The translations under genes and the position numbers were made by a program. Below, in pieces: positions 1 through 64,000 of a DNA stretch of 64,000 bases. Position 1 is the stretch's first letter. Every line of letters starts with the position of its first letter. The stretch covers positions 63,546,516 through 63,610,515 of the forward strand of contig OX243811.1 in assembly GCA_945859605.1 (NCBI GenBank). Reading direction: 5' to 3'. The notes under the pieces were generated by a model that saw nothing but the letters and a program-made list of their open reading frames with translations, was not told the DNA's origin and searched no databases. The stretch is from Lumbricus rubellus. Its lineage: Eukaryota > Annelida > Clitellata > Crassiclitellata > Lumbricidae.

Positions 1-408
1 GCTCTTGCAAAATTACGACTTACAATGTGATTATGAATGAAGGTCGAAAAAAGTGGGCAATAGTTTTTGCTAATCAATTACGTAGATAATAGATCTATTA
101 TCGAGATAAGACTTGCTCATTTGGCTGTCCTTGACACAAATCATCATGTTTTCATGACTTTGGGAACCAGAAGGTATATAGTCTATACTCCTCAGCCTCA
201 AGAATCGAAGATAAGCTTGCAGTGAGCAACAAAAAACTGTTTTGGCATTTGATGTCCCCAAAATGTTATTTCTGCATGAATCTATTTATCTATATAATTA
301 TCCATCCATCGATTCATTAATTCCTCCGTCCCTCCATCTTTCCACATCTAAAATCCCACACACCTTGTATCAATCCATCTATCCATCTATCAATCTACCC
401 ATCGATCT
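1..408. other. Non-coding flank with degenerate ATCC/ATCT simple repeat
   Basis: No gene seen. From about 280 to 408 the sequence is a degenerate tetranucleotide repeat (atcc, atct, attc). The same repeat resumes at 7288, so the retrotransposon at 409-7287 was inserted into it. Confidence 0.7.
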
Positions 409-918
409 TGTGATAAACTCCTTGTAATCACCTCCTCCTATCAGTCTCTTCGGAAGCTTCTTCGTATAAGTTCGTGGTAGCATAGGCCTATCCCTAGATA
501 ACTGTTTCATTAGCTAAATGGCTAGGTAAAGAATCTACAGACTTTCACTGTTTTGTAACCAACAACGACGACGTGTTTAAGCCTTCTTATTATACTCCAA
601 AATCCGATGTAAAGTAAAACGATCAGCAACAACACAACAATGACTACACTTGCGTTATCATAACAACTACACGACTACTACCTTCATCAGTCTACTCTAT
701 CGCAACTCAACAACAACTATTACAGCCTATCTCAACGGCTCTCAACACACAACACTCCTTCTTCACTTCCACTCCCTCCTTGTACACTCAACGTACGCTC
801 GTCTAGACATCACGCGCTGTCCAGACAATCACCTGTCCAGACGCCGCGCGCCAATTTGCAGTTGGCCTACCTGCGTCGCTGTACGACAATCGTCGTGCAC
901 TGATTAAATTAGCTTACA
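409..918 (-). repeat. 3' LTR of the Gmr1-like element
   Basis: Downstream LTR in element orientation, 510 bp, TG...CA on the plus strand (TGTGATAAAC to AGCTTACA). Preceded at 404-408 by the target duplication GATCT. Confidence 0.92.
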
Positions 919-945
919 TTACCTCCTTCCTTTCTTTTGAAGAGA
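919..945 (-). promoter_or_regulatory. Polypurine tract before the 3' LTR
   Basis: On the minus strand the bases just upstream of the 3' LTR are almost all purine (core AAAAGAAAGGAAGGAGG), as expected of the plus-strand primer of an LTR element. The stretch 946-1035 before pol holds nothing else recognisable. Confidence 0.7.
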
Positions 946-1035
946 GCTAATTAATCTTAAAAATTAGCGAACGTATAATGCTTAAACTAAATACAAACAA
1001 TTCCTATACTAAATGCAATCACAAAATATCTTATA

Positions 1036-4000
1036 CTACAATCTCGATAAGCAGTCCGCTACTACATTCAGCTTTCCCTTCTTATAGTTCAACAGAATGT
1101 CAAAATTTTGCAATGATAAAGACCATCGGACTAACTTAGCAGACTTCGACATTGACTCAGTCAAATAAACTAAAGGATTATGGTCAGTGAACACATTAAT
1201 CTTGGAACCAATAATAATTTCTTTCAATTTGTTTAAAGCCCATATGATTGCATAGGCTTCCTTCTCAATCGTCGCCCATCTCCTCTGGGTATCTGTCAGC
1301 TTCTGACTGATAAATGAAACGGGACGTTCTATCCCCTCATCGTCCACTTGTGACAGCACAGCCCCCACAGCAAAATCTCTGCTATCACAGTACAAATTAA
1401 ATGGTTTGCCAACCTCGAACATGTATAAAATCACATTTGATAAAACAATTTCTTTAAGAGAATCAAAAGACTTCTGGTGGTCCTCAGTCCAAACAATGTT
1501 CTCAGGTGTCTGCTTGCTAGTTAAATCTGTTAATGGTTTAGCAATTTCAGCAAAATTACAAATAAATTGTCTGTAGAAACCAAAAAATCCTAACACTTGT
1601 TTCACTTGCTTCTTCGTTTCAGGGTTTTTTAAATTAATCAAACTGTCAATCCTATCTGGATTCATCATCTTCTTCCCTGATCCTATGAGGTGACCGATGA
1701 ATTTCACCTCACTCTTACCAAACACACATTTCTTCAAGTTCAAGGTTACATTATGCAGTCTTATTTGTTTCAAAAACAATTCTAAATGTTTCAAATGAAT
1801 GTTCCAATCATCAGAATGTACTGCAATGTCATCAACATAGGGTTCAGTAAACGCATTAATCGGTTGCAAAATCATGTTTATTGCTTTTACAAAAGTCCGT
1901 CCAGAGTTAATCATGCCAAAAGGGACACGTGTAAATTCGTACAGTCTATTATGGGTAACGAATGCGGTTTTCCATTGGTCGGATTTCTTCACAGGACAAG
2001 TCCAGTAAGCACTGCGACAGTCCAAGACGGAAATAAACTTGGATTTCCCGACTTTGCTCAGCACATCGTTGACGATCGGCATGGGATATCGACAATTTTC
2101 AGTATATGAATTCACATACCTGTAGTCGCACGCGAGTCTCAAGGATCCGTCCTTCTTCTTGACGATGACCAGCGGACTTGCCATTCTGCTCGACGACGGT
2201 TGAATGATGTTTGCTTTCAGCATCTCTTGTATTTGTTTGTCCACTTCTGCGCGGTATATCAGCGGTATTCGATAAGCCATGAACTCTTTCTCTCGAAAGT
2301 CCGGTCTCAGCACCACTTCGTGTTCTACCAATGTACATAATCCAGGTTTGTCCGAAAATCTGTCTGCATAACGGTTCAGTACGTCCAGTAGCTGTTTCTG
2401 TTGCTCGCTCGTAAGATGTCCGATCTGTTCATAGTCCAATTGCAGCGATTTCTGTGTCGTCTCTGCATGGTCTTCTTTCAATGGTAGCTCTACCACTGAT
2501 CCGAATTCGTCGTCCTCTTCCACGATGAGACCACACGATAATGTTCTTGCGATGAACTTCCTCATTTTGTTGGCATGGACGATTCGTCGGCCGTTTTCAT
2601 TCATGTCCACCAGATACGAATACTTGGATCTTCTTTGTAGCACTGTACATGGACCATGCCATCGTGAGATCAATTTATTGGTTGACGTTGGATACAGGAC
2701 GATGACGTTTTCTCCTGGTTCGAATTCTTTATCCTTGGCCCTCTTGTTGTATTGACTGGCGTATTGTTTTTGCTTTTCCTCTGCACAATTCTCAGCAAAT
2801 ATCAAAGCTTTCTCCATGTCTGCTCTTAAGTTCTTCAGGTACTTTGCTGGTTGTACTCCAATGTTTGGCGGTAGATTTATTTCTTTGGTCCAGCTTTCCT
2901 TTAAGATAGTTAATGGTCCTCTTGGCATTTTTCCATACACCAGCAGATATGGTGCCACTCCTGTCGTTGCGTTAGGAACTTCTCTCAATGCCCATACGGT
3001 AAACGGAATGATTTTATGCCACTGTCTTGGATTTTCCACAATGACATGATGTACCATCTTCTTGAACGTCTGGTTCCATCTCTCGACTAATCCGGCTGCC
3101 TCTGGATGCCCCGGTGAATCGAATCGTGGACAGCATCCCATCAATTTCAAAAATTCTCTTGTAAGACTGGCTGTAAAATTCGTGCCTCTGTCGCTGGTGA
3201 TCACAGACGGCACCCCCACGTCAATGAATAGCTTCATCAAAGCTTCGCACACAGCCTTAGCAGTCAATGACTTCAGCAAAAAGATTGTCGGCCATCTTGT
3301 ACATGAATCCACTATGCACAAGCAATACTTATGCCCTGCTGCTGACTTCGGTTCTATTGGGCCTACCACGTCCATAGTCATCCGTCGGAATGGAACATCT
3401 TCCCTTGGAATTGGTGTAATCGGCACTCGATCCATCACCAAACTTCGTGCCTTCAGCTGACACTTCTCACAGGACTTACAAAATTTCACCACGTCTCGAC
3501 GCATCTTTGGCCAGACAAAGGACAACTTGATTCTCTCTCGTGTCTTCTCTTCTCCCAAGTGTCCGCCAAATACTGACTCGTGAGCTAATTCCATTACTTG
3601 AATTCTTCTCTCTTTCGGTAACACCAACTGGTACACTAGCTGATCCAGCATTTGATGTTTCTTATACATCAATCCATTCACCACGCTAAACTCTGATCCT
3701 TTGTCTTCAGCGATCCTCCACCACGATTTCAGTGACTCGTCATTTCTCTGCTGCTCCTCGAATTTCTTCGCATCTTCCAGCTGTCTTTCATCGTTCGAAT
3801 TCTCTGTGAACAAGTCCCTCATACTTGTCTCCAGTTCAGCGTCGCTTTCGGAATCTTCACTATCATTTCGTTCACATGCAGCCATCTCTTCTTCAGTTTC
3901 ATTGTTCTCAGATGTTGTTCTTTCGTCATCTTGAATGCTGAGTTCATCTTCGCTGTCCATGTCATCTTCTTGCGAACTTTCGTTTATCGTTTCATCTTCT

Positions 4001-6777: not shown

Positions 6778-7287
6778 TGTGATAAACTCCTTGTAATCAC
6801 CTCCTCCTATCAGTCTCTTCGGAAGCTTCTTCGTATAAGTTCGTGGTAGCATAGGCCTATCCCTAGATAACTGTTTCATTAGCTAAATGGCTAGGTAAAG
6901 AATCTACAGACTTTCACTGTTTTGTAACCAACAACGACGACGTGTTTAAGTCTTCGTATTATACTCCAAAATCCGATGTAAAGTAAAACGATCAGCAACA
7001 ACACAACAATGACTACACTTGCGTTATCATAACAACTACACGACTACTACCTTCATCAGTCTACTCTATCGCAACTCAACAACAACTATTACAGCCTATC
7101 TCAACGGTTCTCAACACACAACACTCCTTCTTCACTTCCACTCCCTCCTTGTACACTCAACGTACGCTCGTCTAGACATCACGCGCTGTCCAGACAATCA
7201 CCTGTCCAGACGCCGCGCGCCAATTTGCAGTTGGCCTACCTGCGTCGCTGTACGACAATCGTCGTGCACTGATTAAATTAGCTTACA
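6778..7287 (-). repeat. 5' LTR of the Gmr1-like element
   Basis: The upstream LTR in the element's own orientation, 510 bp. It differs from the other LTR by eye at three bases. It contains one TAGGCCTA octamer shared with the other LTR, so that octamer was present in the parent element. Confidence 0.92.
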
Positions 7288-9160: not shown

Positions 9161-9659
9161 TGTATGAGTGTAACTGTGTCAACATGTAGCCTATAGGCCT
9201 ATATTAGGCTGATAATAAGAAAACGTGATTATTTCTCTACATCTTTAAATTGTCTCTTCCACAAAATTAATGTTCTTTCAATAAATTCCTCTATGGCAGT
9301 ATCTAAGTAAATTGGATATTTTATTTTATCACTCTGAAGGTGTTTTCATTCATTATAAAAAGAACTGCTCTCATAAAACACTCCAACATTCTGGTATGGA
9401 TGTATTATTCTATGTGTCAGCGCTCAGCTACATATTTAGAAACCAATTTTGAGCCAGTCATTCTATCACTCGCCATTTCCAACATCACTTTTCAATAGAA
9501 AGGTAATCGTTTAGTAATGGATTATTATTATTATAGCGCCGTTGGTTTTAGTGCTTCACGCCATGCAGATATTGCTTTTCATCTTCCTCTCACCCAACAG
9601 CCTTTCCACCCGAAATTAAAGCTCCAGCTCTTTAGGAATTCCAACCTTAATCCGCCCCA

Positions 9660-13145: not shown

Positions 13146-16100
13146 CTGTGAACGAAATTTTTTCAAATCAGTCAGATTCATAGACATAGACATAATTATT
13201 TTTATTGATCCAAACAATTCAATTGTAGCCTACATGTATGCTTAACAAATTATAGACATAATCAGCAATAAGCAAATACTCAAAGTGAATAAGTAGAGTA
13301 AGAGTGAGGGAACAAATAGGCACACCAAAAGGGACAAGTCCCGCTAAGTAGGGACCTAATTGACAAAGTGAAGTGTAAAAGTAAAAGCTGAACGGAGAGT
13401 ATTGCCGATCAGTTGGAAACGCCTGTAGCGCCTGAGCAAAAAAAGCAAATGCTACCCAAAGATGGCGTACCATGACCAGGTCGTAAAATAATTTCTTGCT
13501 TAACATCCAAATTAGTCTGCCAGAAGCGAAAAAAGCGAAACAGAGGTCGTTTGCGACTAAATTGGTGTCATATTTAATATTTAACCTTTAACGGGACAAA
13601 AATAGAGCCCAAGTTGAAAAGCACTATCAAGTTCATTTGAAAACAATTATTTGAGATGTGACTTTAAAAATCGATTTTTGTTAGGCCTACCTTTCGTTGC
13701 GTTATGTTTTTCAATCGTCAAAAAACAGAGGGTGTTCTACTTCTCATTAAAAGTGTTGTAGCTTTTCTTCTGTTTTAAATATCTTGCTTGAATTTGGCCA
13801 TTGTACGTGAAAATGAATTGCTTTAAGCCCCTAACTTTTCATTTTAACATTCTTACTTAGGGCCAATATATGGCCTACCTTGAAGAGGCGCTATATAAAT
13901 TTCTGAAATAGATAAAATAAATACCTTGGGGTGTTTTTATGGTTCACCCTGTAGATGGAAACTGAAGAGTCCCCAAGATTCGCTCCACTTACCAAGAGCG
14001 AGATCACACCCGAGCAAGGCAGGCAAACTAGGTTGTGGAAAAATGGTCGACATCTTAGTAGTGCTGAGTTGTGTGGTGACTTTGTGCGGCGAAGTGGCAC
14101 TTGAAGATGGTGTACGGGATGAGGTTGCGATTGAAGATGTTTTTGGCGATGAGGTTGCGATTGAAGATGTTTTTGGAGATGAGGTTGTGATTGAAGATGT
14201 TCTTGGGGATGAGGTTGCGATTGAAGATGTTCTTGGAGATGAGGTTGCAACTGAAGATGTTCTTGGAGATGAGGTTGCGATTGAAGATGTTTTTGGAGAT
14301 GAGGTTGCGATTGAAGATGTTTTTGGAGATGAGGTTGCGATTGAAGATGTTTTTGGAGATGAGGTTGCGATTGAAGAAGCGGGTGTGGTTGGCCGAAAGG
14401 TTATTGTTGAGGATGAGGTTGTGGTCGAGCGCACAGGTTCAACAGTCGACTCTCCAGAGTTAATAGCGATTCCACTTGTATACAAGCCGTATGGTGCGTC
14501 CGTTGCTGAAGCAATTGATAGCAAAATAATTATGTTCAAAAAATGTTTAGTGTTCCACATGCTATAGCTTTGTGCAAATATCCGTCAGTCTGTTGCATTT
14601 GTCGCTAACTTACTGCTGCTTACATTATAACAGCAGCAAATGTGGCATGCTATTTTAATTCAAAAATTTTGTCCCGCGCTTCTATGCAGCAGTGCTGGTT
14701 GAACTTCACTAACTTGCTCACATGGCACCAATGTTACAGCCTAATGCAGTGGTTCCCAACCTTTTTTGACTTGAGGGCCACTTTTTCTAAGTTGGAGGAC
14801 ATGAGGGTCCATAAAAATTGTTATAATTGAATCAAAATAGAATGTTTTCTGTTCTTTTATAGACGTCAAAAATCAAAATAAAATAGGCCTAACTTGTAAT
14901 AGAAATTTGTGTTTTATCCTGTTCAAAATTGTCAATTTTTTCATATATTTTTGTTAATTCTCTAAGAGATGAAGGACCATATTTTTAGGTCTCGCGGGCC
15001 ACTTTTGGCCCGCGGGCCTCGGGTTGGGAACCACTGGCCTAATACGATCCAGTATTGAACCTATAAATAGCTCACATTTTGTTTCCTATCAATACCGATG
15101 GCAGGGAACATACCACCTCGTTTGCTGGACTACAATTTCTTCAACTAAAACTTGTGTAACACAAGTTGTGTTATGCCGTCACATAAGCTTACAGCTCAGG
15201 AAGCACTCCCAGGTTTCTGAAGCATGAACATCTATTTACTTTATCAGATCACCGGAAATGCATAACATAATATTTGAAACGGTTGTGAGGTGCGAACAGC
15301 AGGGTTGTACACGAGGGTGTATCGTCAATATCGGGGTGAAATTGTAGCCTAAGCAAATGACTAAAAAAAACGATAGCGAATTGAGGAAATTTTTCCGAGA
15401 TTTTGGCCGATCACTTAAAACAAGGTAATCAGCTTTTTCGAACGTCGAATTGAGAAAATTTTCCCGTGAATTTGGCCGGATTACTAAAGAAAGGGCGTCA
15501 GAAAATATTTCAAGTCAATGGCGTCGGGTCGTCACGGTCCGCCAAAGTCAGACCTGGTAACTTTTCAAAACCACGTTCAGCCCTGTTTACAAATAATATT
15601 ATAAAATACAATAAGCTTACAGTGTCGACTGTATTACTCTCACTAAAAATGCACGAATACCTGCACGACTGCTTAAAAGAATGCGTGAAATTTTTGGCGT
15701 AGACTTACCTGCAGCTCGACAGCTTTGAAGATCATCGGCCTTTGAAAATAAGAAGACACAGTAGCATTAAATACATTCACTCAATACGATGTTAATTGTT
15801 AAAATGCCTTGATAACATTTTAAGAGTCTTAAGAGCCTGATTTAGAACAAAACCGATTTAGAACTTTTTTACATAGAAATATAGCCTACATTTGTTAGAT
15901 TCAAACTCCCTATCTCAATACAGTTTAAATATCTCACCAACCTCAGCCAGTGGCGGCGCTACGCCAGGGCAAAGCAGGGCAAATGCCCTACCAAAACAGC
16001 CTTTGCCCTACCTGTTGCCCTAGTCGTTGCCCTGCCAGAAATGTTGCCCTGCCAGAATTTGTTCAGACATATTGTTTGTTACTGTTCACGTCCGCCCGCT

Positions 16101-17541
16101 CTCTGGAATGAAAAAATTTATTCTGGAAGGCAATAGTTCTGAGAGATAAAAATTCTGGCAGGAAAATAGTTCTATCATATCAAAGAAACATTCTGTCAGA
16201 GCAAAAATTCTGGCAGGGCAAACGTTCTGACAGGGAAAACTTCTTGCAGAGAAAATGTTCTGACAGGAAATAATTCAGACAGAGCAAACATTCTAATAGG
16301 GCAAAATGCTGGCAGACAAAAGTTCCGGAAGGCAAAAATTCTGGCAGGGAAAAATTCTGGCATGGCAAAAGTTCTGGCAGCGTAAAAGTTCTGGCAGGGA
16401 AAAATTCTGGCATGGAAAAAATTCTGGCAGGGATTTGCCTTTTTTGAAATGTCGAAACGGCTTATTTCTGCGAAGAGCTATTTCTCTGCGTCACCATGCA
16501 GGCCTAAATTAGGCCTACTCGTGAATTGACAACGTAAGATCTTGGTTGTGAAGTTTCAAATTAAAATTAGTGGAACAAAAGGCATGTAGCAGAGCTATTT
16601 CACATTGAATTTCACTATAAATACTAGGCCTATGTATATTGCAATGCTCAGTGCACATGCAGAATATTCATGCGTTGTAAATAGGCTACAATGGTTCAGT
16701 AACTAAAATAAACCCGAAATTTGCCCTCCCCCCAAAACAGAAACCCAGACGAAATCCAAACAATCCAGATCTAGTAGAAAAACACAGCTGTGGCATCACT
16801 TTATAGCGATCACGGTAGCCAGGGCCGGATTAAAAAATGTGGCGGCCCTGTTTGGAAAATTTGTTGGGGGATCTTCGGCCAAAAGTTTTTATGACATTTT
16901 TTCAGTCGTTTGGTCGAAATTTCGGCAGAATATACCAAGTGCGCAAGTCACTGCTCCGTTGTCATCTTTGTTTCCTTTAAAATAAATTGTATATGTCGGG
17001 CTCCTAAAGTGTGGGCCCTAAATGTGTGGGACCCCTGTTCGGCCGAACATGTTGAACATGCCTTAATCCGACCCTGACGGTAGCGCCAAAATTATAAGCT
17101 TATGTAAGCCCGCACTACCAAGCACGCGACTCGACCTCTGCCCTGGTTACTTGTGTGACTGCCCTGGCTATGCCCTGGCTATAAAAAGCGTCTGGCGCCG
17201 CCACTGACCTCAGCATGGTAACATCCCGCCACAACAGCACAGTTAGACGGAGCATAGTGAAAGAGTTCACAGGTTCTGATGTATCTTCGGTAGTTGTAGT
17301 TAGTACAGACGGAGTCTTGAAGACACTGCAATGCACATAGAGCCCCGGGAGGAACACAGGAATCCGGGTCTGATAACAACGGAGACAACTGGTCGACAGG
17401 AATAACAAGCGATGGTTCATCGATTGCGCATGTCACTGCTCCGTTGTCATCTTTGGTTTTCTCAAACGCAACCACGACGTTTCTCCACAAACTTCCAAAG
17501 CTGGAAGATATGAAGAAGAAAAGTAAGCATTGCACTTTCAT
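12631..17541 (-). CDS. Secreted PAN-like / mucin-repeat / fibrinogen-domain protein (4 exons)
   Basis: Inferred gene, join(17541..17209, 15739..15709, 14505..13993, 13145..12631) on the minus strand: 1392 bases, 463 residues plus stop. Exon phases agree at every junction (0; 0 to 1; 1 to 1; 1 to stop), and junctions have GT donors and AG acceptors. Exon 1 encodes a signal peptide (MKVQCLLFFFISSSFG) and a Cys-rich PAN/apple-like module (CALQCLQDSVCTNYNY, CELF). Exon 2 is a 31-base exon. Exon 3 is a Ser/Thr/Pro repeat of about nine 10-residue units, likely O-glycosylated. Exon 4 carries the fibrinogen-related C-terminus (YWLGNERVHQ, CKGGWWYGC). Proteins of this type are secreted lectin-like recognition molecules; the ligand is unknown. 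The first part of the usual fibrinogen domain (GGGWT region) is diverged or absent. An alternative start at 14560 also has a signal-like N-terminus. No polyA signal was identified. Confidence 0.72.
13993..14505 (-). CDS. Exon 3: Ser/Thr-rich tandem repeat
   Basis: 513 bases, phase 1 in and out. Contains about nine copies of a 30-bp unit (about 14117-14385) encoding SSPKTSSIAT-like decapeptides, the arrangement of a mucin-type stalk. Ends in GCDLALG with a consensus donor CTTG|GTAAGT. The open frame continues upstream to a Met at 14560 with a hydrophobic leader (HFLNIIILLSIASA), so use as an alternative first exon cannot be excluded. Confidence 0.68.
14117..14385 (-). repeat. 30-bp coding minisatellite
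   Basis: About nine tandem 30-bp units (gatgaggttgcgattgaaga plus ten more bases) inside exon 3, length in multiples of three so the frame is kept. Such arrays are usually length-polymorphic. Confidence 0.85.
14747..15036. mobile_element. hAT-type MITE in intron 2
   Basis: 290 bp with inverted ends CAGTGGTTCCCAACC / GGTTGGGAACCACTG. Flanks GCCTAATG (14739-14746) and GCCTAATA (15037-15044) are an 8-bp target duplication with one mismatch. No transposase. It lies in the intron between exons 3 and 2 of the fibrinogen-domain gene. Confidence 0.87.
15709..15739 (-). CDS. Exon 2: 31-base exon
   Basis: Pyrimidine-rich TCTTCTTATTTTCAAAG acceptor, 31 coding bases (ADDLQSCRAA plus one base), then CAG|GTAAGT. 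Phase 0 in and phase 1 out, matching both neighbours. The small size makes this exon less certain than the others. Confidence 0.55.
16090..16435. repeat. Degenerate ~18-bp tandem repeat inside the hAT element
   Basis: About 18 imperfect units of the form aaattctggcagggcaaa, many with point changes. Subterminal tandem repeats are common in hAT elements; here they fill much of the interior. Confidence 0.75.
16820..17076. mobile_element. Nested hAT-type MITE
   Basis: 257 bp inside the larger hAT element. Ends CAGGGCCGGATTAA and, inverted, CAGGGTCGGATTAAGG. Exact 8-bp duplication ACGGTAGC at 16812-16819 and 17077-17084. It therefore inserted after the host element. Confidence 0.87.
17209..17541 (-). 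CDS. Exon 1: signal peptide and PAN/apple-like module
   Basis: 111 codons from ATG at 17541. Hydrophobic N-terminus followed by cysteines spaced as in PAN/apple modules (GALCALQC, SVCTNYNY, RTCELF, SNCAVVAGC). The donor is GAG|GTCAGT at 17209/17208. The last six exon bases and the GT belong to the 8-bp target duplication of the hAT element in the intron, and the CAGT after them is the transposon terminus. Confidence 0.72.
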
Positions 17542-19465: not shown

Positions 19466-20140
19466 TTTTACTTTCAAGTAGGCCTACATGGATCTCTGAC
19501 TGCAACTTCCTCTGGCGGCTGCATGACTATCCGCGCCTCAGAATTGGAACCTGATTGGAATCTGGACATGCAACAAACGAACAAAGAACAGCTCACTGTT
19601 CGCATACAATTAGACCTATAATTATTTGACAATGCAATGAAAATGTAAAAACACCGGCAGAATGAATATATCATTTAGGCTAGTTACGTTGATGCCTACA
19701 GAATACGTACATATAATTATGTAGCCTAAATATATTCGGAATTCATTAAAATGGAATCTTTACGATCAATATTTTGTTATTGATCCACCAGAAATATCAA
19801 GGAATTTAAAATGGATTTTTCTAGACTATGCATTATGTCCAAAAGCACTAAATTAAGAAAATGGCGTCCACATACTTTATTATTATTTTCCAAACAGGCA
19901 AAATTGGCCTAGGCCACTGATATTATTTTATTACCATTTTTGCTCATCGCTGGTCATGTGAAACCAATTTGTTATCAGAGAAGGACTATAAAAAACAAGT
20001 CTCTGGTTCCTCCAATGTATGTCCTTGGTATTCCCGAAACTTATTTGTTCAATGCACGATGCAATGACGGTTTCTGTAAAATTGAATTAAATTGAACACT
20101 TCATGCATTATTTATAGCCTACATTACCTGCGAGCAGGAA
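19466..20140. other. No gene recognised
   Basis: AT-rich, with a TAGGCCTA octamer near 19480 and several TAGGCTA/TAGCCTA variants. No coding or RNA gene seen. Confidence 0.4.
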
Positions 20141-20290: not shown

Positions 20291-21044
20291 GAAAACTAAA
20301 TGGAAGAAGTGATGATGATGATACTGAGCGAGATCCAAAGCATGAGAACACATAATGCAGGTACACAGATGTTAGAGTTTCCATTGTGTTATTGGGCTAT
20401 TTATCGATCCACAAAGAACGCTAATTTGCAATTAGGCGCTGTCTTGTCTTTGAGTAAGCTTAGTCTAGCGTTCAGGCCAATTCATTTCCGATTTCACGGC
20501 CGTTGTCGCCTAACAACAACATCATCAACAACATCATCAATAACAACAACATCAACTGTCTAGATGTCACATCGCCTGTGCTGTCGCATCATAAGATTTC
20601 GACAGTTAATAGTTTGGTCCAGATTCCATCTGTCTATTTATAATCACTATGACTAATGTTTACTTGTGATCGTTTTAGCAATCTTTGAGCTTATGCCTCA
20701 AGATGAAAATGGCATGACGTAAACGTAAAGAATAGGCATAGGCATACATGTAGGCCTAGATCTACTAAAATGATGTACAGGTTTTATATCTTCAAATTGC
20801 TTGCCCATAATAAGTTATAACCTCTCTACCGTAGGCGACTAGATATATAAGCATAGGTGTAATCTCAAATTTTTTAAACGATACCCTAAACTATGAAAGC
20901 ATGAGGTATGAGTTATGGCGGTATTGGCGGAGGAACTGAGAACACGCGGCATTAATAGGACAGTTTCGATCCGGAGTCGATATGCACAGTGGCATGAGTA
21001 AGCTTATAATTGTTTGAAGACTGGAAGAGGCGAGATGACAATGT

Positions 21045-42470: not shown

Positions 42471-42899
42471 TGATAAATGATAATTGATTGTTAAATGAGA
42501 CATGCTGTGATTGAATTAATTGGTGCAATTGCGAGGCGAAATAATTGAAAAGTGTCAATAATATTAAAGCGGATGTCGTTTCAATGATCGCAGACACGAG
42601 TTTAGTGCATGGGCTATGCCTGTCTGCCCGTCTGCCCGTCTGTCCGTCTGTCCTTCTGCCCGTCCGTATGTCAGTCTACACTCAAAAATTACTGACAGTC
42701 CAACTCAAGATCTGGTGGAGCAAAGCTGCTGCCTTGGAAGGCAATGGCGTTGAAACGTTGTATTATAGGCCTAATGACCATGCAAAGATAACTGGCTTCT
42801 CTCGTGTCACCGGTAATGCGAGATAAACAGCGCCCAAACTCCTCTGTGAAGAAAAAAAATAGGTCACTGATGTTATTTGGGCCGAAAGTCTCAAATGCA

Positions 42900-42990: not shown

Positions 42991-43083
42991 ATAGAAATAA
43001 TATAATTATTATCTTTTTTAGCATCATCATCGTCGTCATTGTTAGGCCTACCGCTGCAATAGCAGTAGCAGCAACAACTAGGC

Positions 43084-43763: not shown

Positions 43764-44225
43764 TAGAATAATTTATGAACTAAAATACATTTATGAACTA
43801 GAATACATTTATGAACTAGAATACATCTATGACCTTGAATACATTTATGATTTAGAATACATTTATGACCTAGAATACATTTATGCACTATAATACGTTT
43901 ATGCACTATAACACGTTTATGTACTAGAACACGTTTATGTACTAGAATACATTTATGCACTAGAATACATTAATGTGCTGGAAAACATTTATGTAGGCCT
44001 ACTGGAGATGTCAAACATTTGAACCTGCCTAAGGGCAGAGAACAGAAAGAAGAAAAAAAACTGGAATACATTAGGTATTGTAATACATTTATGTACTAGA
44101 ATACACTTATGTACTAGAATATATTTATGTACTAGAATACATTTTATGTTCAAGAATATAGAATAGGGGCCTACGTTTATGCATTTAGGGCCTATGCACT
44201 AGAATACATTTATGTACTAGAAATC
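43764..44225. repeat. 18-bp minisatellite (acatttatgtactagaat), two blocks
   Basis: About 12 units at 43764-43990 and about 6 at 44070-44225, split by about 80 bases of other sequence. The last unit of the first block reads ATGTAGGCCTACTGGA where neighbours read ATGTACTAGAA, i.e. TA replaced by TAGGCCTA. Confidence 0.88.
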
Positions 44226-44245: not shown

Positions 44246-44719
44246 GGGGCCGTCCATAAAGTACGTCACGCTATTTTTTACCATTTTTGACCCCACCACC
44301 CCCTGTCACAAACTGTCACAAATCTCGGATCCCCCCCCCCTAAAGTACGTAGGCCTAACACTTTCGAAATTTAAAAAAATTAACATCGCAAGGCTATACA
44401 TAGGGCCTAAAACAAGGCTTCGCAGCAGCATTACTAGCGCTCCTAACGAGAGGAATCGTGAACAACACATTCAGGGATACGCATTTCATGCTATTTTGAC
44501 ATAAAACTAATTCAAATGGTTCACGAAATGTTTGAAAATTATTTTAAAGCTATTAAATTCTACAAAAAAATATAAAAAAGAATAAGAAACAAAATTTAAA
44601 AAAAAATAAATGTGTGACGTCACACATGGCCTGACCTCCCCTCCCCCTGTCACAAACTGTCACACTTTCTTACACCCCCTCCCGCCCCCTGGAGCGTGAC
44701 GTACTTTATGGACGACCCC
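44246..44719. mobile_element. TIR element, GGGGCCGTCCATAAAG family, copy 2
   Basis: 474 bp, ends as in copy 1 at 11243 but reversed in orientation. ATA on both sides (44243-44245, 44720-44722), again a 3-bp duplication. Contains TAGGCCTA at about 44350 where copy 1 lacks it. Non-autonomous. Confidence 0.85.
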
Positions 44720-45420: not shown

Positions 45421-45670
45421 GTGAACAGTTTCAGCGCCAAAAGGATCATGTCTAAGAATAAATTATAGGTTCCTCTGTGTCTATATAGACTCGTATTTTT
45501 ATATTATATGCACGTTATTTATGGCCTATGCATGCATTATATTCAGCTTCATATAATGTGTAGCCTATTCGTATTAGGCCTATAGGGCCTACTTGAAATG
45601 CGTGTGTTATTATTGTGCACATTTTCAGCGCAAATGGATCATTTCTAAGGATGAATTATAGGCTCCTATA
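45420..45670. repeat. Duplicated ~60-bp block flanking a mariner
   Basis: TTTTCAGCGCAAATGGATCAT (45627) with its surrounding bases recurs at about 45428 in direct orientation and, shorter and inverted, at about 46370-46400 beyond the mariner element. Confidence 0.6.
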
Positions 45671-46743: not shown

Positions 46744-47540
46744 TAAGCTTATGATGGACATGTTTGCCAATATAATCCACAACTTGGAAAGATAATAGGA
46801 AACGGTGAATTATAATTGACATTGTTCTTCTATAGCAACCGTATTAATATGATTATCTCGAGCCTGTTCATTAACTTCAATGAATTGACCAGGTGAGATC
46901 CTTCACCACCGCTGTAGTATTATAGATGAAGTCATTTCGAATGAATTACATACTATTATTAGACGCGTACACATTGAGAGGTTGTGATGGTGACCCTAGG
47001 AGACGAACGTAGTTCTACAATGTCCTACATTAAGTGGGCGGATGTGATCAAATATTTAAATGGACGAGAATTAGAGTCTATGTGAGAAATTCAGCACCTG
47101 AGGCAACGAAAGTCTACGATCCTTTCAGTCCATTTCGATTCGTAATCATTGTGACCAGGTGTAAGAACATAATATTATTTTCTGCCATGTGAAAAAGAGA
47201 TGCGTGATAATGCAGTTAATAGCGTTATAAGTTTAATTATAGGCCTAATAGCTGTGCTACCCGGCGTTGCCCGGGAAAATTTAGGTTTTTCGCTCCACTC
47301 AAAGTTCTCCGGTAAAGTTCGCGTTGCTGCTTCACCACAATGTGATAAAAATCATTTGCTGTTATTGCGGCTATGTTATTTTTCTTACCTTTCAATCTTC
47401 ATTTTACACTTGATATAATTATTTAATAGTATTATTTATGTGGTTTCATCGATATTGGCCATGCCCACGACCTGAAAAAATGACCTACGAAGAGATGCCT
47501 GTCAACCTAATTGATATTTTAACTTAGCATTATAACTGCT
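46744..47540. other. No gene recognised
   Basis: Contains a GC-rich near-palindrome CTACCCGGCGTTGCCCGGG at 47255-47275 in otherwise AT-rich DNA. No gene. Confidence 0.4.
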
Positions 47541-52109: not shown

Positions 52110-52540
52110 CCTTCGTTTGTTCGTTCGTTCGTTCACTAACTTCACTTATTCATTCGTTCATTCATTCATTCATTCGTTCTTTTGTTCATCCATTCATCCA
52201 TTCATCCATTCATCCATTCATTCATTTATACATTCATTCATTCATTCATTCAGGGCTGTTTTTAAGGAAGTTTTAGAACTGCACAACCCCTTCTTTTCTT
52301 TCTCATCCTCCATGATAAATTACTTCCAATCGGAGGAAAATGACCTTTTACCATAGCTTTCACTGCACAGAAGTGCTTTTACAACTGCACAAATCCATTT
52401 AGAACTGCACACTTTGTGTACAACTGCACGTTAAAAAAGCCCTGCATTCATTCATTCATTCATACATACATACATACATACATAGGCCTACATACATTCG
52501 TTCATTCATTCATTCGTTCATTCATTCATTTCTTACGAAG
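52110..52540. repeat. ATTC/CATA tetranucleotide microsatellite split by a MITE
   Basis: (TTCA)n from 52110 to 52250 and from 52445 to 52535, with a CATA block interrupted once by GGCCTA (about 52482). Confidence 0.92.
52251..52444. mobile_element. Small hAT-like MITE in a microsatellite
   Basis: 194 bp from CAGGGCTGTTTTTAA to GTTAAAAAAGCCCTG, flanked by CATTCATT on both sides (52243-52250, 52445-52452); the duplication is ambiguous because the target is itself a CATT repeat. Interior repeats ttagaactgcaca / acaactgcac four times. Confidence 0.78.
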
Positions 52541-53250
52541 ACTTCTATTGCACCCCGTCCATGTTACTAAAAAGGAAAGAGGACAGTATTAAGATTGCAA
52601 TAGAAGGTGTCAGAGGGAACCCTTAGAGAATGATAGGCGTGTAATGATCGAGCGAGGATCTATCGACTGGCTTTGCTGTTCTCACTGCAGCGAAGAGACA
52701 CGCAGCACGCAGAATGAGGATCTCGCTGGCTTTAGCTGGAAATTGATACAAACGACGTTGAATTGTTTCGTGGCTTTACCGAACGCGATTTCTTTTTCTA
52801 ATACTATAGACTGCATGGGATCAAATAGATCACAGTTATAAGCATTATTTTAGCAAAACCCGCACTTCTTTTATTTCACTACCGAGTAGCTGTTTTCGTT
52901 GCAATAGGCCTAGATGGACTTTGGAGTGATTAGGCTATCATTGTTGGATTAATAGTATCATTATTAGTTTTTTAGACACTTGTTACAATAGTCTACGTTA
53001 CTGAATACAATTAGTTACCAATTACCTACAATTAGTTTCTAATTACAATTAGTTAGGCTACTAATAATTATTACAATTAACAGCCGATTAAAATTGTTTA
53101 TGTTACTCGTTACGATTAGTTGCTAATTAGCCAAATTACAATTTGTAGCTAATTAAAATCAGTTAGTAATTTATTGCAATTAGCTACTAATTAGCTACAG
53201 TCACAGTTTGACAGTTGTCCTATAATAAATACTGTTGATCATGTTCGTAG
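52541..53250. other. No gene; AATTAGTTACT-rich stretch
   Basis: 52985-53215 is a degenerate repeat of taattagttact / acaattagct. Otherwise nothing recognised before the receptor exon. Confidence 0.5.
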
Positions 53251-54126: not shown

Positions 54127-57100
54127 ATGATGATGATGATGATATGATGAAAACGGTTTCTTCTGTTGCTGTCGGCGTAGAGACGCAGCATTCGTTGATC
54201 CTTTCAACGAAGAGAAATCCTCGCAAGGGTGGAAGCAGCTTCAGTCTTCGCGCATCTAACATTGGAATCATCCAACAAGCGAAGACGCGAACGCTGAAAA
54301 TGACGATCGTTATTGGTAAGAAATGATTTTATTGCAATGGTCATGCAACAGTTGAAGTGAGGATTAAATTAAAGAGAAAAAATAATTATAAGTGAAATGA
54401 ACAAACAAACAATTTATATGCTTAGAATCGGCGTTTAGAAAATTGTAATAACAACAATCTTCGTTTTAGTTTCAAACTGACGCAACGCAGGATGATTCAA
54501 ATTCATAGTAATGAACGGATGATCACAAGTTATTTCTGCAATCGAAATTAGCTGTCGGCAGCCTTGCAAGGCGTTAGCACGGTCAACTGTTTAGTTTGCC
54601 AACGCCATCTGCAGAATGGAAGGTTGCGTGGACGTTTGGCGATGATAGAGGGATCGGTGAACTCTTTGTGCCTGAGTGTTTACTATTCTAAGGTCAAGCC
54701 CTCTTTCCACTGCAATTCTACGTGAGAATTAAAGAAAAGGAAAGCGTTGGAGGTGAATTGAAACGAAAGGGAAGAATGGGAAAGGGTTAAAAAGGAAAGG
54801 TGAGATAGAAGAATCGAAAAGAGAAATGCCTTGTGGAAGAAGCGAATGGAAGAGAAAAGAAAGAGTTGATATGTTGTAAAGAAAGGAAAAGTGGACGAAA
54901 GGAAGTAGGTAAATTTTGGGGCCTATCAGTAGTAGGCTTTGTATAGCATTGCATTGTCTTGTATCAGTAATATAGATTGTATTGTATTGTACATAATTTT
55001 ATTTATAGTTCATCAGTAATAGATTTCTGTATTGTATTGTTGTAAGCAATATATTTTGTATTGTATTGCATTTTCACGAGAATTTACGAAGCGTTTCTTT
55101 TATGATTATTCATTGGCTTTCTGAGTCTGAGCATTTCGTGGAAACTGAAATGTGACTTCTCCAGACACGTGCAATACATGCATGAATAGATAATAGGGCA
55201 ACAGTAAGCTGACGATGGTGTCCATTCGTGGAAAACTGCGGTAAAAATGAAAAGAAATGACCACATATCTTGTCCACTGCTGCGGTTGACACATGTCACG
55301 TGTCACACACAGAAAATATATCAACGTCTGGACAGATAATAATTATAATTCTGGCTTCAAAAAAAACATTGCCTCTCCAGACAAATGGGCAGCCATGACA
55401 GTCTCTCTTAGACTCTTACGGTCGTCACCTCTTGCTCTAAAGGTCGATGCCTCCTACGGTCGATTAGAATTATTAGGCATGACAAAATGGACCTAAAAAA
55501 CTCGGGAGTAGCTAGGGCCTAATCTCGTCTCATTTTGAACTGGGTTTCTCACTAGCCATCCGTAAATAGAATCACTGAAGGGAGATTCAGGTGAATGGAT
55601 AATTATTACTGGATGGAAAATGTCTAAAAACTGTTGTTAGACTGAGTCTCGAGTCTAAGCAATTAGACTTCACTTAGTCTATATGACATTGGAGAAGAGC
55701 TGCTGATGGCAACTCTTTTTGAGTCCAATCAATCATGGAAAATGACAGCGAACATAAGAATTGCGAGGAAATTCTGGACTTCTGGTCTTGAGATCTGTGT
55801 CGAGTGAAATCACTGGTACTACTACTATGGCAACTGCATGTTTCATTTGCACTTTTTTGAGACTCGTAAACGGATTTGCCTGCAGTTTTTGAGTGGCATT
55901 ATTCTTATGAATTTTGAACATGGTCCAGCGCTGACTGATGAACTGATTGATTGAGCGATTGATTGATCGATTGATTGAGCGATCGATTGATCGATTGATT
56001 GATCGATTGATCGATTGATTGATCGATTGATTGATTGATCGATCGATTGATTGATCGATTGATTGATCGATTGATTGATCGATTGATTGATCGATTGATC
56101 GATTGATTGATTGATCGATTGATTGATTGATCGATTGATTGATCGATTGATCGATCGATTGATCGATTGATTGATTGATTGATTGATTGATCGATTGATT
56201 CATTGATCGATTCATTGATCGATTGATCGATTGATTGATCGATTGATTCAAAATGGAGTGGAGATGGTAATTTGAAAGATTTACTCAAAGTGCAATAGGG
56301 CGTTTGCCACTAGGCCTAATACCCTTTTCACCGCGTAGGGTAAGATCTTTTCGACTGAAATTCTCGTCTTCTCTGTAATATCTCTTCTGAATTCTTTGCT
56401 GACCATCGCTCCATCTTCCGTTGGTCAATCTGGTGCCTCTCCATTCCCTCGTCCACTCCCTGGTCATCTCTTGTGGTCACCGGTCGCTATAATCATTGAC
56501 CAGTTGATGCAGCTGCTCCTTTCGCATATCATTTGCATAAATTTGGTTAGTAATGAGGATACGCATCGAGACCTGGCGACAAAAAGAAGAAGTAGCGGTT
56601 GACTGTTATTCGACACACAGGCACAGTGGAGGGAGGCAGTGGAATTTACAGGCAGACGCAGATAGCACTGAGGGAGGATCGCGATGGCATGCAGTCATAC
56701 AGACTGAAACAGAAAGAATTGCGTAATAGCAAATTTTTTTATATCGAATGAACTAAAATATGCCTACAATAGGCTATAGGCCTACAATGCAGGCCATCGA
56801 TTACAGTATAATTATTTACTTTATTTAATGATTTCTGTTTATTTAACTTTTTATGTTAAATTTATTTATTTAAATATATTAGTTCATTTAGCCTAGATGA
56901 TCAATTTAATTTACTGACTTAAAAACTTTTTTATTAGCCTCAGTAAGTAGCCTATTATTACTATGATTATTTTACCTAGGCCTGCACTATTTCATTTATT
57001 TATTTAAAGCGTTTAGGCCTTAACTTTAGGGCCTATTACGCAACCGAGATAGCGTAGCTAAATCCGAATCTGTGACCAGGATGTACTTTGGCTAGAGGCC

Positions 57101-58547
57101 AAGACGGACCCGTACGACTACCGTAACGGTAGTCAGCTAGGCAACATAACGAGTCTCGACAAGTGACTTTCATTATGGTAACGAGTTTACCTTTTGGCGA
57201 TTTGCGGTGGACGAGGATTATAGCATTACAACGGCACAAGATCCTTAAAATTGTTTTCAATCTAGTTGTAACAAAAGAAATGCATGGCATCAGTAGAACG
57301 CATCAGTTTTTGCAAGACGATTATGCTTACAGGCATGGACGGAACTAGAATAGAATTAGAATAGTTATAGAAGTCAATGACGTCGACCCAGTTGCAGATA
57401 GTCAGCATAATAATAGAAGCCGACGACTCCTATGATTTTTATGTAGATGACTAAACAAACACAGAGCAAGCAAGAGGCAACAAGACAGAAGCAAACACAG
57501 TGGTAGCTAAAGCGACTAAGAGTAGGCTATAATAGGTATGAAACTGGGTGTGTGACGTCAGTAGCACGGTCAGTTATTGGCTTCTATGATTGTCTGATTA
57601 CAATGCGAATGCTGCTGCTGCTCGTCAGCCTGATAGAATCTGACAATAGAAAACAGTCGAATAATATTATTGTCTCAAGAGATGAGCGATTAGTAGTTTA
57701 ACGAGTAAGCTTACTTTAGGGCCAATTAGACGCACTCACTTACTTACGACTCAGTCAATCAATCAGTCAATCAATAAGTAGATCAATAAATCAATCAACC
57801 AATCAACCAACCAATCAACCGACCGATCGATCAATCAATCGCATACTTGCAGAATCATTCTTGTTTATTGGGTGGTTAGCTGATTGGGCATTACGTTTTC
57901 CTTATAAAATGCTGCTGCTCTTGCTTTATAGCCAACAGTATTATACAGCAGCTGTAGGCCTACACCTCTATGATCTATCAGGACTATAATTGAGTAAGCT
58001 TAGACTACGCCAGAGGTTTAGAGACCAAAATTAATGCGCACTCTTCTTCCGTTCAAAATATCGGACCTAGAATATTAAGCCGGTTATAATAATTTTTAAT
58101 GTTCACGCGGGAACGAAACTGTAACTAAGCCATTCATTTAGCGCTATCATAATATAATATTATGTGATGACCAAGAGTCAAATGATGGCGCTAAGGAGTG
58201 AGTGAACGATAATATGTGTCCATGTTCCTCATGCACTCCGTAACAGTGTGTGCCTACATGTAAGTGTATATTATAATGGTCGAATCCGCATTAGAAATGA
58301 TGTGCAGTGACGAATCGACGACAGTCCGTGTCTTACTGCTGGAAGAGCCAAACTACTTTTCTTATTGGACAACCCTTCTGAATTGAAACAGCGCTCGTGA
58401 ATAAGCTGGTGCCCAGTGCTTGGTTGTAGAGTGGCGCTCTAGAAATTTGGAGATTACGATTACGATTTGTTTTTCTCTTGTAGTGTCCGTTTTCATCGTT
58501 TGCTGGACGCCATACTTCGTCATTTCCATCTGGTACTGGTTCGATAA
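53251..58547 (+). CDS. GnRH/corazonin-type G-protein-coupled receptor, three internal exons (partial)
   Basis: Inferred join(53251..53455, 54181..54315, 58484..58547), 404 coding bases. Junction phases agree (1, then 1, then 2 at the end) with AG acceptors and GT donors (GTCAGC, GTAAGA, GTAAGT). The peptide covers extracellular loop 2 to TM6 of a rhodopsin-class receptor: QCVTFNFFPTHDHELAYNLF before TM5, a TM5 with FIAVYLVPLVVIIVSYALIL, an intracellular loop 3 ending AKTRTLKMTIVI, and TM6 FIVCWTPYFVISIWYWFD. The WTPYxVxxIWYWFD and CVTFxFFPT motifs are typical of the GnRH, adipokinetic-hormone and corazonin receptor superfamily, which senses short amidated neuropeptides, usually through Gq. 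Exons for TM1-TM4 and TM7 were not found; they may be upstream or downstream of the window. The sequence alone cannot tell a GnRH from a corazonin receptor. Confidence 0.88.
53645..54143. repeat. GAT/GAC microsatellite in receptor intron
   Basis: Nearly 500 bases of GAT and GAC triplets with a G-run near 53845. His/Ile/Ser open frames are artefacts. Confidence 0.93.
54181..54315 (+). CDS. Receptor exon: loop 3 to start of TM6
   Basis: Acceptor GGCGTAG|AGACGC; encodes a basic, Ser-rich loop (KRNPRKGGSSFSLRASN) and AKTRTLKMTIVI; donor TTG|GTAAGA. Exon lies directly beyond a long GAT microsatellite. Confidence 0.85.
54316..55950. other. Receptor intron, no other gene
   Basis: Includes GAAAGG-rich (54740-54905) and TTGTATTGTA-rich (54945-55075) stretches. 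The latter resembles the simple tail seen after SINE copies. No coding feature on either strand. Confidence 0.5.
55950..56250. repeat. GATT/GATC tetranucleotide array
   Basis: About 300 bases alternating GATC and GATT units, with many self-complementary GATCGAT segments. Gives Asn-Gln-Ser-Ile frames on the minus strand, an artefact. Confidence 0.95.
56251..58380. other. Receptor intron, no other gene
   Basis: AT-rich. 56805-57010 is strongly TTTATT-rich; 57745-57840 is CAATCAATC repeat; 57113-57135 has a short perfect hairpin (GACTACCG/CGGTAGTC). No gene. Confidence 0.45.
58390..58470 (+). repeat. SINE fragment adjacent to receptor TM6 exon
   Basis: GCGCTCGTGAATAAGCTGGTGC followed by GGCGCTCTAGAAATTTGGAG and an ATTACG repeat. 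It ends about 15 bases before the acceptor of the TM6 exon, so it contributes intron sequence right up to the pyrimidine tract. Confidence 0.65.
58484..58547 (+). CDS. Receptor exon: TM6
   Basis: Acceptor TTTTTCTCTTGTAG|TG; encodes SVFIVCWTPYFVISIWYWFD plus two bases; donor GATAA|GTAAGT. Carries the CWTP motif central to receptor activation. Confidence 0.92.
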
Positions 58548-58799
58548 GTAAGTATGGGTTGATCCATGGCGATGTTCAGCAGAAATTTCTTAATTATTAG
58601 GCCTATTTGATAATTTAATGTAGGCTAAACGAAATCCAGTAGGCCTAATATGCGATGTTGGTTCGTTTATTCACTTTATTGCATGCGATGTGCTGCAGAA
58701 TAGTTTGGACTAATGTGAAGTTTAGTCATATATAATAAAAAACCTATTCTCGAGTTACTTATTTCACAAGATAGCTTAGAGAAGATATCAGTGGACCCA

Positions 58800-62262: not shown

Positions 62263-63265
62263 ATGCATGACTAAATAATATCATCATAATCGCAATGGGA
62301 TAACTCATCTCCTGCATTACCACTGGATTAGAAAAGTTCACAATGTAGGTGTCATGAATCCTATCATTTGATGTGAATCTACGGCGTATTCTGTAGGAAC
62401 AGGTTGGAAAGACAATTAAGAATTAAGGAATTGCGATTTCAGGATTCAACACGTAGGCCCTATCCGATATTATTAGCCTACCTCGATCCCTGCGAGTAAG
62501 AAACCACATGTGGCATGTTGTTGTCCTTCCACATTATTATTTTTACCATCTTCTATCATTCTCAGAGCTGCCTAAAATGTGTGCAATATTATCTGACACT
62601 GTTCTGAAAGTTCGAGAGTCAAAATATTCAGGTATTTAAATATTTTTACGCTTGGGTGTTCTGTGCACAAAAACCTCTAGTAAATAAAATTCATCTATAT
62701 TTTTTGCAAGAGCTGAATCATAGTGGGAAGCATCACTTAGGGAAAGAGCAGTTTGTAATGTTCTGACAATCGTCAATCGTCCTTTACTGGAATTATAGGT
62801 TTAACAAAATCGGCGAGTAAAGTGCTGAGTGCTTCAATAATGCACATACTTACTTACTTACTTCAACGCTTGCGTTTAATAATACACCCTTACTTACTTA
62901 AATTATTGAACAAAATGCGATGGCGAATTATTTCGCGGGTCACGAGAACATAAGAATCATCATTGTGATATTTGGTCTATATTTATAATTTTATGGTTTT
63001 GTGTGCTTTAGCAATTTATCGCAGAAATACAAGACGGTGAGTTTATAATGTTATTTTGATTGCTTTTCTTTTTTCGTGAATAAATCATTTCTGAGCTGGA
63101 TATGATGACGACGCAATAGATCCGACCCTCACCACGCCGGTTTTGGCCGGAATATCAGAAACCAGAATCCCCGTATATAGTAGCGAATTTCGGCAGAATC
63201 CACGAAATCGATTTTCACAGGGCCTAATGATTTTGGGTAAACGTGTATTTTAGCGTCGTAAATTA
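62263..63265. other. No gene recognised
   Basis: AT-rich, includes short CTTA repeats at 62845-62900. A 25-base segment at 63012-63036 has an AG before it and GTGAGT after it in a phase that could continue the receptor, but has no family signature; not called. Confidence 0.45.
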
Positions 63266-63269
63266 TTTG

Positions 63270-63660
63270 CTCGTTGCAGTATTATTATTTTTATTCAGTC
63301 CAACTTCTAGTTTGGTATGAATTATTATCATTGATCCAGCTTCTGTTTAGGCAAGAATTCGTGTCAGCATTCCCGCTTCTATTTCCGCAGCAATTACTTT
63401 TTATCAGTACAACTATTTTATTAAAAATTATTGTTTATCAATGCAGCTTCAATTTCAGCAAGATGTTTTCACAAATTCCACTTCTATTTAGGCCTAATTA
63501 AAATTTATTTTCATCATTGCAATTTCTATTTAGCAATAATTATTTTCACTAACTCGACTCGTATTCGACCAATGCTGAAACCCATGCAATGTTAAATAAT
63601 TTACGCTGCTAAAATATACGTTTACCAATCCCACTCCTATTTAAGCAAAACTTATTTTTA
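63270..63660. repeat. Degenerate ~45-bp tandem repeat
   Basis: About eight diverged units of the form attattttcatcattccact + tctatttagcaa, each with an (a/g)cttctatttagg-like core. Old minisatellite or satellite relic. Confidence 0.65.
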
Positions 63661-63664
63661 TAGA

Positions 63665-63735
63665 TTGTATTGTATTGTATCTATAGGTTTATATAGCACC
63701 TCATTCAGAATGACTATTCAGAGGCATTCTCAGCT
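63665..63735 (-). repeat. SINE tail, minus strand
   Basis: The minus strand reads GCCTCTGAATAGTCATTC ... GGTGCTATATAAACC then ATACAAT repeats, the same tail as elsewhere. 63736-64000 shows nothing further. Confidence 0.65.
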
Positions 63736-64000
63736 AAAACAACCTGTGGAGTTGCATCAATTGTTACCTCAATTGTAGACTTATAATTCTGATTATGGCG
63801 ACTGTTATTACGATGACTTGTGTTTGTTTTCTGTTTGCATTTGGATCATTGTTGGGCCAAGTTAAGACAGTTATAAAATAGGCCTACAGTGAATAACTGT
63901 TAATTATTTAGGTATGCTTTGCCATATAAAAGGTATACAAATCAAATGCGTTTCTAATTGACAGGTCGCCTGAATGCACGTTCCAATCTTGTCAGAAGAC

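Follow-up and report, generated by a model that had tools for sequence, protein, structure and literature searches.

A hyperabundant palindromic octamer of Lumbricus rubellus arises by exact insertion at TA and may be a transposon excision scar

HIP1 of cyanobacteria is a hyperabundant palindrome of eight bases that is maintained as a word. Here we describe another hyperabundant 8-base palindrome, TAGGCCTA, in the annelid Lumbricus rubellus, starting from a 64,000-base stretch of contig OX243811.1 (assembly GCA_945859605.1, forward-strand positions 63,546,516 to 63,610,515), which is referred to as the window. The other relevant precedent is the footprint that Tc1/mariner-type transposons leave at TA upon excision, usually deemed a rare by-product. 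For Passer, of the pogo superfamily, excision scars of 0-4 bp are reported and likened to those of ZB and Sleeping Beauty (PMC9976928). A discussion of Stowaway and Osmar5 mentions 1-4 bp fragments of the terminal inverted repeats beside TA duplications (PMC1925063). Among the listed part of the literature with TAGGCCTA as text, none concerns abundance in a genome, as judged by titles and the starts of abstracts. By the same measure none on TAGGCCTA, palindromes and genomes is relevant. Titles of papers on genome-wide mariner excision footprints mention no hyperabundant scar, and the words 'footprint' and 'excision' are absent from PMC7731502.

The window contains 45 exact copies of TAGGCCTA, when 0.46 is expected from an order-1 and 0.59 from an order-2 Markov model; the Poisson tail against the latter is about 10^-66. 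A first-pass annotation, made by eye, had claimed about 44, and the ten coordinates it quoted each lie within 5 bases of an actual site. Among 8-base palindromes of the window, TAGGCCTA has the highest enrichment, 76.9-fold, followed by one at 14.8-fold. The several-fold enrichment suspected for TAGGCTA and TAGCCTA also holds, with 53 found and 5.0 expected. In a 264-kb sample made of the window and twenty 10-kb pieces (L009-L028) at round positions on six contigs, there are 154 TAGGCCTA (2.5 expected), 183 TAGGCTA/TAGCCTA (19.8 expected), and 20 TAGGGCCTA/TAGGCCCTA (1.0 expected). TAGGCCTA is the most enriched octamer of this sample that is not simple-repeat-like. Under an order-3 expectation, which is stricter because the word inflates its own tetramers, it is still enriched 24.5-fold (152 vs 6.2).

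The excess extends to the whole genome of 787,420,884 bases in 368 contigs. TAGGCCTA occurs 326,253 times and the reversed control word 5,862 times. TAGGCTA occurs 209,415 times forward and 208,255 times reverse, against 31,991 and 32,341 for controls (417,670 vs 64,332 in total). The genome average from these counts is ~0.86 excess words per kb. Across the twenty 10-kb pieces, TAGGCCTA ranges from 0 to 14 per 10 kb, and octamer and heptamer counts correlate with r = 0.70. In the window, 3 of the 45 octamers lie within the 16.4 kb occupied by two long terminal repeat (LTR) elements, each with near-identical LTRs, and 42 lie in the other 47.4 kb, in keeping with the proposed build-up with age; the heptamers, 9 of 53 inside these elements and 44 elsewhere, follow this trend more weakly. 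Rfam gives no match in the window at the gathering score.

How the word arises was seen in a defective Tc1/mariner-type element (29240-30523) and its genomic copies. With one end of this element as the query, 44 matches were obtained, 40 of 697 first-look candidates having been scored. Of 25 full-length stretches fetched, L046, L051, and L059 were dropped as truncated, chimeric or masked, and 22 were aligned with the window copy. The copies were chosen by a good match over the first 213 bases, so the set is biased against insertions in that part. Across 28,759 sites, the 23-copy alignment has 319 substitutions, of which 179 are private. Compared with the 22 other copies, the window copy alone has TA replaced by TAGGCCTA at 29539 and 29644 and by TAGATCTA at 29561. 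L044 alone has an exact gain from TA to TAGCCTA, L042 and L049 have in common one from TA to TAGGCTA, and L055 has one from TA to TACATGTA. Six of the eight 5-6-base insertions among the copies are exact changes of TA into TA-x-TA, four of these being of GGC type; this tally omits one insertion at the re-arranged site 30092. At these sites, the words are exact, recent gains at TA rather than products of point changes, as the annotation had anticipated.

The TAGGCCTA at 29780, 30057, 30092, and 30144 are in the copy consensus, that at 29780 being base-changed in one of five copies of a smaller alignment, and they were therefore already present in the copy that founded this defective family. For three of these, the empty state is found in related proteins. 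The transposase frame reads VNGE(stop+A)YYVGLLRDKLIPE, NPDDN(stop+A)YIFQQDSAPSH, and DTHI(GL)QKS, where each bracketed pair is two codons added by TAGGCC or GGCCTA. Ninety protein relatives were found and 20 aligned, the two best being 69% identical over ~80% of the query. The aligned relatives lack these pairs at all three sites, apart from P0016, which carries a single extra residue at the second site and reads as unrelated sequence at the third, and P0014, whose alignment falls short of the first two. P0009 and P0015 have, at the protein level, GL-type insertions of their own elsewhere. Pfam (E 0.001) gives no match for the read-through transposase piece, and some relatives carry PF13358.

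The empty TA is also seen within the window, in (CATA)n at 52483, in a minisatellite at 43994 and 44186, and in a local repeat at 25469. In copies, repeats and the three coding sites alike, the empty site is a single TA and the filled site is TA-x-TA. Birth of TAGGCCTA from TA through a gain of exactly 6 bases, as first proposed in the annotation, is established at the sites examined. The element itself is set in inverted arms of 324 bases with 99% complementarity (29086-30677), which run past its ends into the flank and an AGAC-type microsatellite; they probably stem from the recent duplication, in inverted orientation, of one end and its flank in an otherwise decayed copy.

The products form a narrow spectrum. 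In a 279-kb set, which includes some loci fetched for holding the word, TAGG and CCTA are spaced by no base 167 times, by one base 20 times (all G or C), and by each length from 2 to 15 bases 2-11 times. Of six control words, five range from 0 to 12 at each length, and the sixth, the repeat-bound GTAG, reaches 29. In the 264-kb sample, the shorter TAGGTA/TACCTA (90 vs 87.5) and TAGCTA (35 vs 39.3) are not enriched. Product lengths are therefore sharp, being GGCC, GGC/GCC, and rare GGGCC, as in a footprint of few bases and few products. We rejected that the heptamers are decay products of the octamer, because their excess of ~163, a single-base-deletion class, is larger than that of all 12 single-substitution neighbors combined, ~74 (142 vs 68, hand-summed); they must be mainly primary products. 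Neighbor decay is ~6% per site. The base preceding TA is A in 39%, G in 34%, T in 20%, and C in 8% of scars, so that A or G occupies 73% of these flanks, compared with 51% for all TA.

A narrow product set around one end pair with TA doubled fits the pattern left by excision of a TA-target transposon. We conceive, with a probability of about two in three, that TAGGCCTA, TAGGCTA/TAGCCTA, and TAGGGCCTA are excision scars of a Tc1/mariner-type element with ends TA-GG...CC-TA, where hyphens mark the element boundary. Such a cut-and-paste DNA transposon would insert at TA, duplicate this target, and later leave. If the break keeps both TA copies and two terminal bases per end (GG and CC), the net gain would be 6 bases. 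Loss of one base or pairing of the overhangs would yield 5 (GGC or GCC), and retention of one extra base would yield 7 (GGGCC). Long repeated jumping by a persistently rare element could then produce hundreds of thousands of scars, far in excess of its copies, since a jump adds to the scars and leaves the copy number unchanged. As no donor qualified, we infer this mechanism, including its transposase, the donor ends, and the accumulation of scars beyond donors.

Retention of two bases per end can be compared with other families of this genome. Tc1/mariner-type transposases with intact frames are many (113 of 7,758 first-look candidates scored). Among the matches listed, at least 14 DD37D-type copies of equal score have the same 366-residue open frame, which marks a recently amplified, possibly active family. 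The DD37D-type (maT-like) families have ends TA-CAGGGTGG, TA-CACTGTGTCC, and TA-CCGGGTGGCGC; six representative elements have TA-CA ends, with DD37D spacing counted by eye. Intact transposase frames in several of these families and near-identical copies indicate recent TA-transposition in this genome. With two end bases kept per side, CA ends would leave TACATGTA, which is enriched 10.4-fold (52 vs 5.0, 264 kb with simple repeats masked) and is the word gained in L055. Among 16 symmetric flanks, TA is the best for CATG, GGCC, CCGG, and AGCT, but not clearly so for GATC. TAAGCTTA (23 vs 4.0) and TAGATCTA (12 vs 3.7) are also enriched and are probably scars of further TA elements. The window also contains a second DD37D-like element remnant (45679-46292) with TA-CAGGGTGGTCCAAAATAAACCGCACA inverted repeats matching at 26 of 26 bases, and an element with TA-CACGGTGTCCCAATTGAAG inverted repeats (17633-18468), whose ends also surround an intact transposase frame in L108.

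Several observations weigh against the excision reading. No credible TA-GG-ended donor with a TA target was found in 279 kb, and the scars exceed in number every TA-element family seen. The GGGCC class keeps five bases, one above the quoted published range. At the fourth coding site, 30092, ~5 extra residues vary among copies instead of a clean 6-base gain. TACCGGTA shows enrichment (9 vs 1.2) and is the scar predicted for the CC-ended TA-CCGGGTGGCGC family, but that family has TA before its target in 41 of 47 ends (TATA context), while the nine TACCGGTA sites lack this context; the pairing fails, and since the CCGG control failed on its flanks, it is not used as support. TACAGTA/TACTGTA, the scar of CAG ends under a 3-base rule, is hardly enriched (38 vs 29.6).

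A variant that does not exclude the above, possible but doubtful, is a GGC-ended donor with 3-base overhangs, in which GC/GC pairing would give GGCC and the mismatched three bases would give GGC or GCC. It accounts for the near-equal excess of octamers and heptamers, with GGGCC as a partly trimmed product. On the other hand, it fails to give TACATGTA from CAG/CAC ends, which the 2-base rule does, and no GGC-ended TA element was found.

The annotation had likened the word to a Tc1/mariner-type footprint of an element with GG ends or, alternatively, to a templated micro-insertion. The product spectrum agrees with the former, but the search for elements with TA-GG...CC-TA ends yielded none with a TA target. 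Structural scans for TA-G...C-TA inverted repeats (288 kb and 279 kb) found no repeated GGC family, and a self-comparison boundary scan supplied further GG-start candidates. The 29240-30523 element, with apparent TA-GGC ends, was dropped because its genomic copies end in TA-CCGGGTGG. Three candidates were rejected by their target flanks or the length of their target duplications. In the GGGTG(A/C)CAAT family the ends adjoin TA, and 288 termini compare with 42 reversed controls, at most ~250 above control, but the base before TA is A3 C4 G2 T11 in 20 ends, unlike scars. The GGCGTAGGAG (CATAGGCGTAGGAG) repeat family, with 2,210 exact termini compared with 111 in the control, starts at CATAGG; CA precedes TA in 22 of 22 ends, and paired copies show, by eye, 8-base target duplications. 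The GGGTTGCCAGGC (TAGGGTTGCCAGGC) repeat (L026, L019) has an 8-base duplication in its sole paired copy (L026 8513-9477), where by eye the 8-base GACCCATG flanks TAGGG...CCCTA. For two GG-starting repeat ends, GGGCTGTTGATTT (L011/L028) and GGGTCAGG (L019/L028), brief inspection did not find the other ends.

Two observations on repeats were made alongside this search. The CATAGGCGTAGGAG...CGCCTATG repeat has three copies in the window, at 43084-43379, 12313-12605, and about 25570-25772, with 8-base duplications elsewhere. TA-flanked elements with GGGTGCCAAT/GGGTGACAAT ends occur at L022 2588-4991 and L025 6389-8275, and the L022 copy has decayed frames without Pfam placement.

The empty donor search would suit a donor-free explanation, in which a nick or break at TA, for example by an abortive transposase cut, is repaired with GG added at each 3′ end; such symmetrical addition would yield GGCC between TA copies. 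We regard this as unlikely, because untemplated addition should spread lengths and letters, whereas TAGGTA/TACCTA and TAGCTA are unenriched and the one-base-longer class has G or C in 20 of 20. In addition, other TA palindromes (with CATG and AGCT) appear in the same style, suggesting donor-specific letters. Far less probable is maintenance of TAGGCCTA through selection, methylation or protein binding, as proposed for HIP1. High abundance and perfect palindromy would suit such a maintained word, but TAGGCCTA is gained whole by insertion and breaks transposase frames, the five-base variants are gained likewise, and the largest single-substitution neighbor excesses (264 kb) include transitions, as in ordinary decay. 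An artefact of composition or simple repeats, or a satellite carrying the word, has nothing but palindromy in its favor and is rejected, because the 45 window sites have flanks that look different by eye (the LTR pair 483/6852 excepted), simple-repeat masking of the 264-kb sample leaves 152 vs 2.6, and across the genome TAGGCCTA outnumbers the reversed word 56-fold.

Returning to excision, four GGC-type gains beside 179 private or 319 total substitutions, a small sample from one family, give very roughly one new scar per 45 to 80 base substitutions. The ~0.86 excess scars per kb and ~6% neighbor decay would be compatible with such a rate over time. It is tentatively conceivable, at somewhat less than an even chance, that the donor is a 'ghost' transposon that nearly always leaves and is at very low copy or gone, and whose scar is now the most over-represented non-simple octamer of an animal genome. 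Were this the case, scars would insert two codons or a stop into any coding sequence they hit.

The sites in the window are collected in Table 1. Elsewhere in the window, an open frame on the minus strand (12634-13167) matches the fibrinogen C-terminal domain (PF00147, E 1.1e-14), a tandem array of an 18-base unit (21363-22342) has long frames that stay open in both strands, and 23089-23288 is an assembly gap of 200 N.

Table 1 Octamers, heptamers, related words and their host element in the window
Feature	Position	Strand	Remark
TAGGCCTA scar, LTR of 409-7287 element	483..490	.	in both LTRs
TAGGCCTA scar, other LTR of 409-7287 element	6852..6859	.	in both LTRs
TAGGCCTA scar adjoining TAGCCTA at 9187	9194..9201	.	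exact word
TAGGCCTA	13682..13689	.	exact word
TAGGCCTA	14884..14891	.	exact word
TAGGCCTA	16510..16517	.	exact word
TAGGCCTA	16625..16632	.	exact word
TAGGCCTA	19479..19486	.	exact word
TAGGCCTA	20751..20758	.	exact word
TAGGCCCTA (7-base class)	22891..22899	.	exact word
TAGGCCTA	23860..23867	.	exact word
TAGGCCTA	23910..23917	.	exact word
TAGGCCTA, first of overlapping pair TAGGCCTAGGCCTA (scar within scar)	23930..23937	.	exact word
TAGGCCTA, second of overlapping pair TAGGCCTAGGCCTA	23936..23943	.	exact word
TAGGCCTA	24271..24278	.	exact word
TAGCCTA (5-base gain)	25469..25475	.	local repeat copy at ~25431 has empty TA; 2/30 mismatches
TAGGCCTA	26254..26261	.	exact word
TAGGCCTA	27241..27248	.	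exact word
TAGGCCTA	27430..27437	.	exact word
TAGGCCTA	27789..27796	.	exact word
TAGGCCTA	27811..27818	.	exact word
TAGGCCTA	27999..28006	.	exact word
Defective Tc1/mariner-type (DD37D-like) element, six TAGGCCTA inside	29240..30523	-	family ends elsewhere TA-CCGGGTGGCGC
TAGGCCTA, exact 6-base gain, window copy only	29539..29546	.	not in 22 other full copies
TAGATCTA, exact 6-base TA gain (another scar type), window copy only	29561..29568	.	copy alignment
TAGGCCTA, exact 6-base gain, window copy only	29644..29651	.	copy alignment
TAGGCCTA in family consensus; extra GL in transposase frame, not in relatives	29780..29787	.	
TAGGCCTA in family consensus; stop+A splits DDN-YIFQQD, not in relatives	30057..30064	.	
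TAGGCCTA within more complex gain, differs among copies	30092..30099	.	copy and protein alignment
TAGGCCTA in family consensus; stop+A splits NGE-YYVG, not in relatives	30144..30151	.	
TAGGGCCTA or TAGGCCCTA (7-base class)	31166..31174	.	word match
TAGGCCTA	31416..31423	.	exact word
TAGGCCTA within 31877-41404 LTR element, outside its LTRs	38569..38576	.	exact word
TAGGCCTA	41545..41552	.	exact word
TAGGCCTA	41963..41970	.	exact word
TAGGCCTA	42766..42773	.	exact word
TAGGCCTA	43043..43050	.	exact word
TAGGCCTA in 18-base minisatellite; adjoining units have TA (family D11, by eye)	43994..44001	.	
TAGGGCCTA, 7-base gain in same minisatellite as 43994	44186..44194	.	empty TA in units
TAGGCCTA in repeat end; copy near 11624 without insert, one substitution beside	44350..44357	.	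consistent
TAGGGCCTA or TAGGCCCTA (7-base class)	44401..44409	.	word match
TAGGCCTA	45575..45582	.	exact word
7-base-class word right after/overlapping TAGGCCTA of 45575 at TA; reads TAGGCCTATAGGGCCTA	45583..45591	.	
TAGGCCTA	47240..47247	.	exact word
TAGGCCTA in (CATA)n, exact 6-base TA gain	52483..52490	.	repeat context
TAGGCCTA	52905..52912	.	exact word
TAGGGCCTA or TAGGCCCTA (7-base class)	55513..55521	.	word match
TAGGCCTA	56311..56318	.	exact word
TAGGCCTA right after TAGGCTA at 56770	56777..56784	.	exact word
TAGGGCCTA or TAGGCCCTA (7-base class)	57027..57035	.	word match
TAGGCCTA	57955..57962	.	exact word
TAGGCCTA	58598..58605	.	exact word
TAGGCCTA	58640..58647	.	exact word
TAGGGCCTA or TAGGCCCTA (7-base class)	62454..62462	.	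word match
TAGGCCTA	63489..63496	.	exact word
TAGGCCTA	63879..63886	.	exact word

If the excision reading is true, scars would be a major and sequence-specific source of insertions of 5 and 6 bases, and a recent one. Past jumps could be counted independently of surviving copies, and the scars would disclose the lifetime activity of a transposon, with dates from their host repeats. Short insertions that recur in the genes, repeats and alleles of this lineage would be explained, and programs that model indels in it should expect such insertions.

Compared with Tc1/mariner-type footprints, as described in the papers cited above, the sites are alike in having two TA copies with few terminal bases between them, few product classes centered on one donor end, and a clean TA as the empty site. 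They are unlike in that they number 326,253, their donor is not visible, and their middle is GGCC or GGC rather than derived from a CA-type end. The DD37D-type families of the genome share with the proposed donor the TA target and recent transposition, but have CA or CC ends, and their predicted scars TACATGTA and TACCGGTA are rarer in the 264-kb sample than TAGGCCTA (52 and 9 vs 152). The parallel with HIP1 drawn in the annotation stands for the hyperabundance of an 8-base palindrome and not for its origin, because HIP1 is a maintained word, whereas TAGGCCTA arises by exact insertion at TA.

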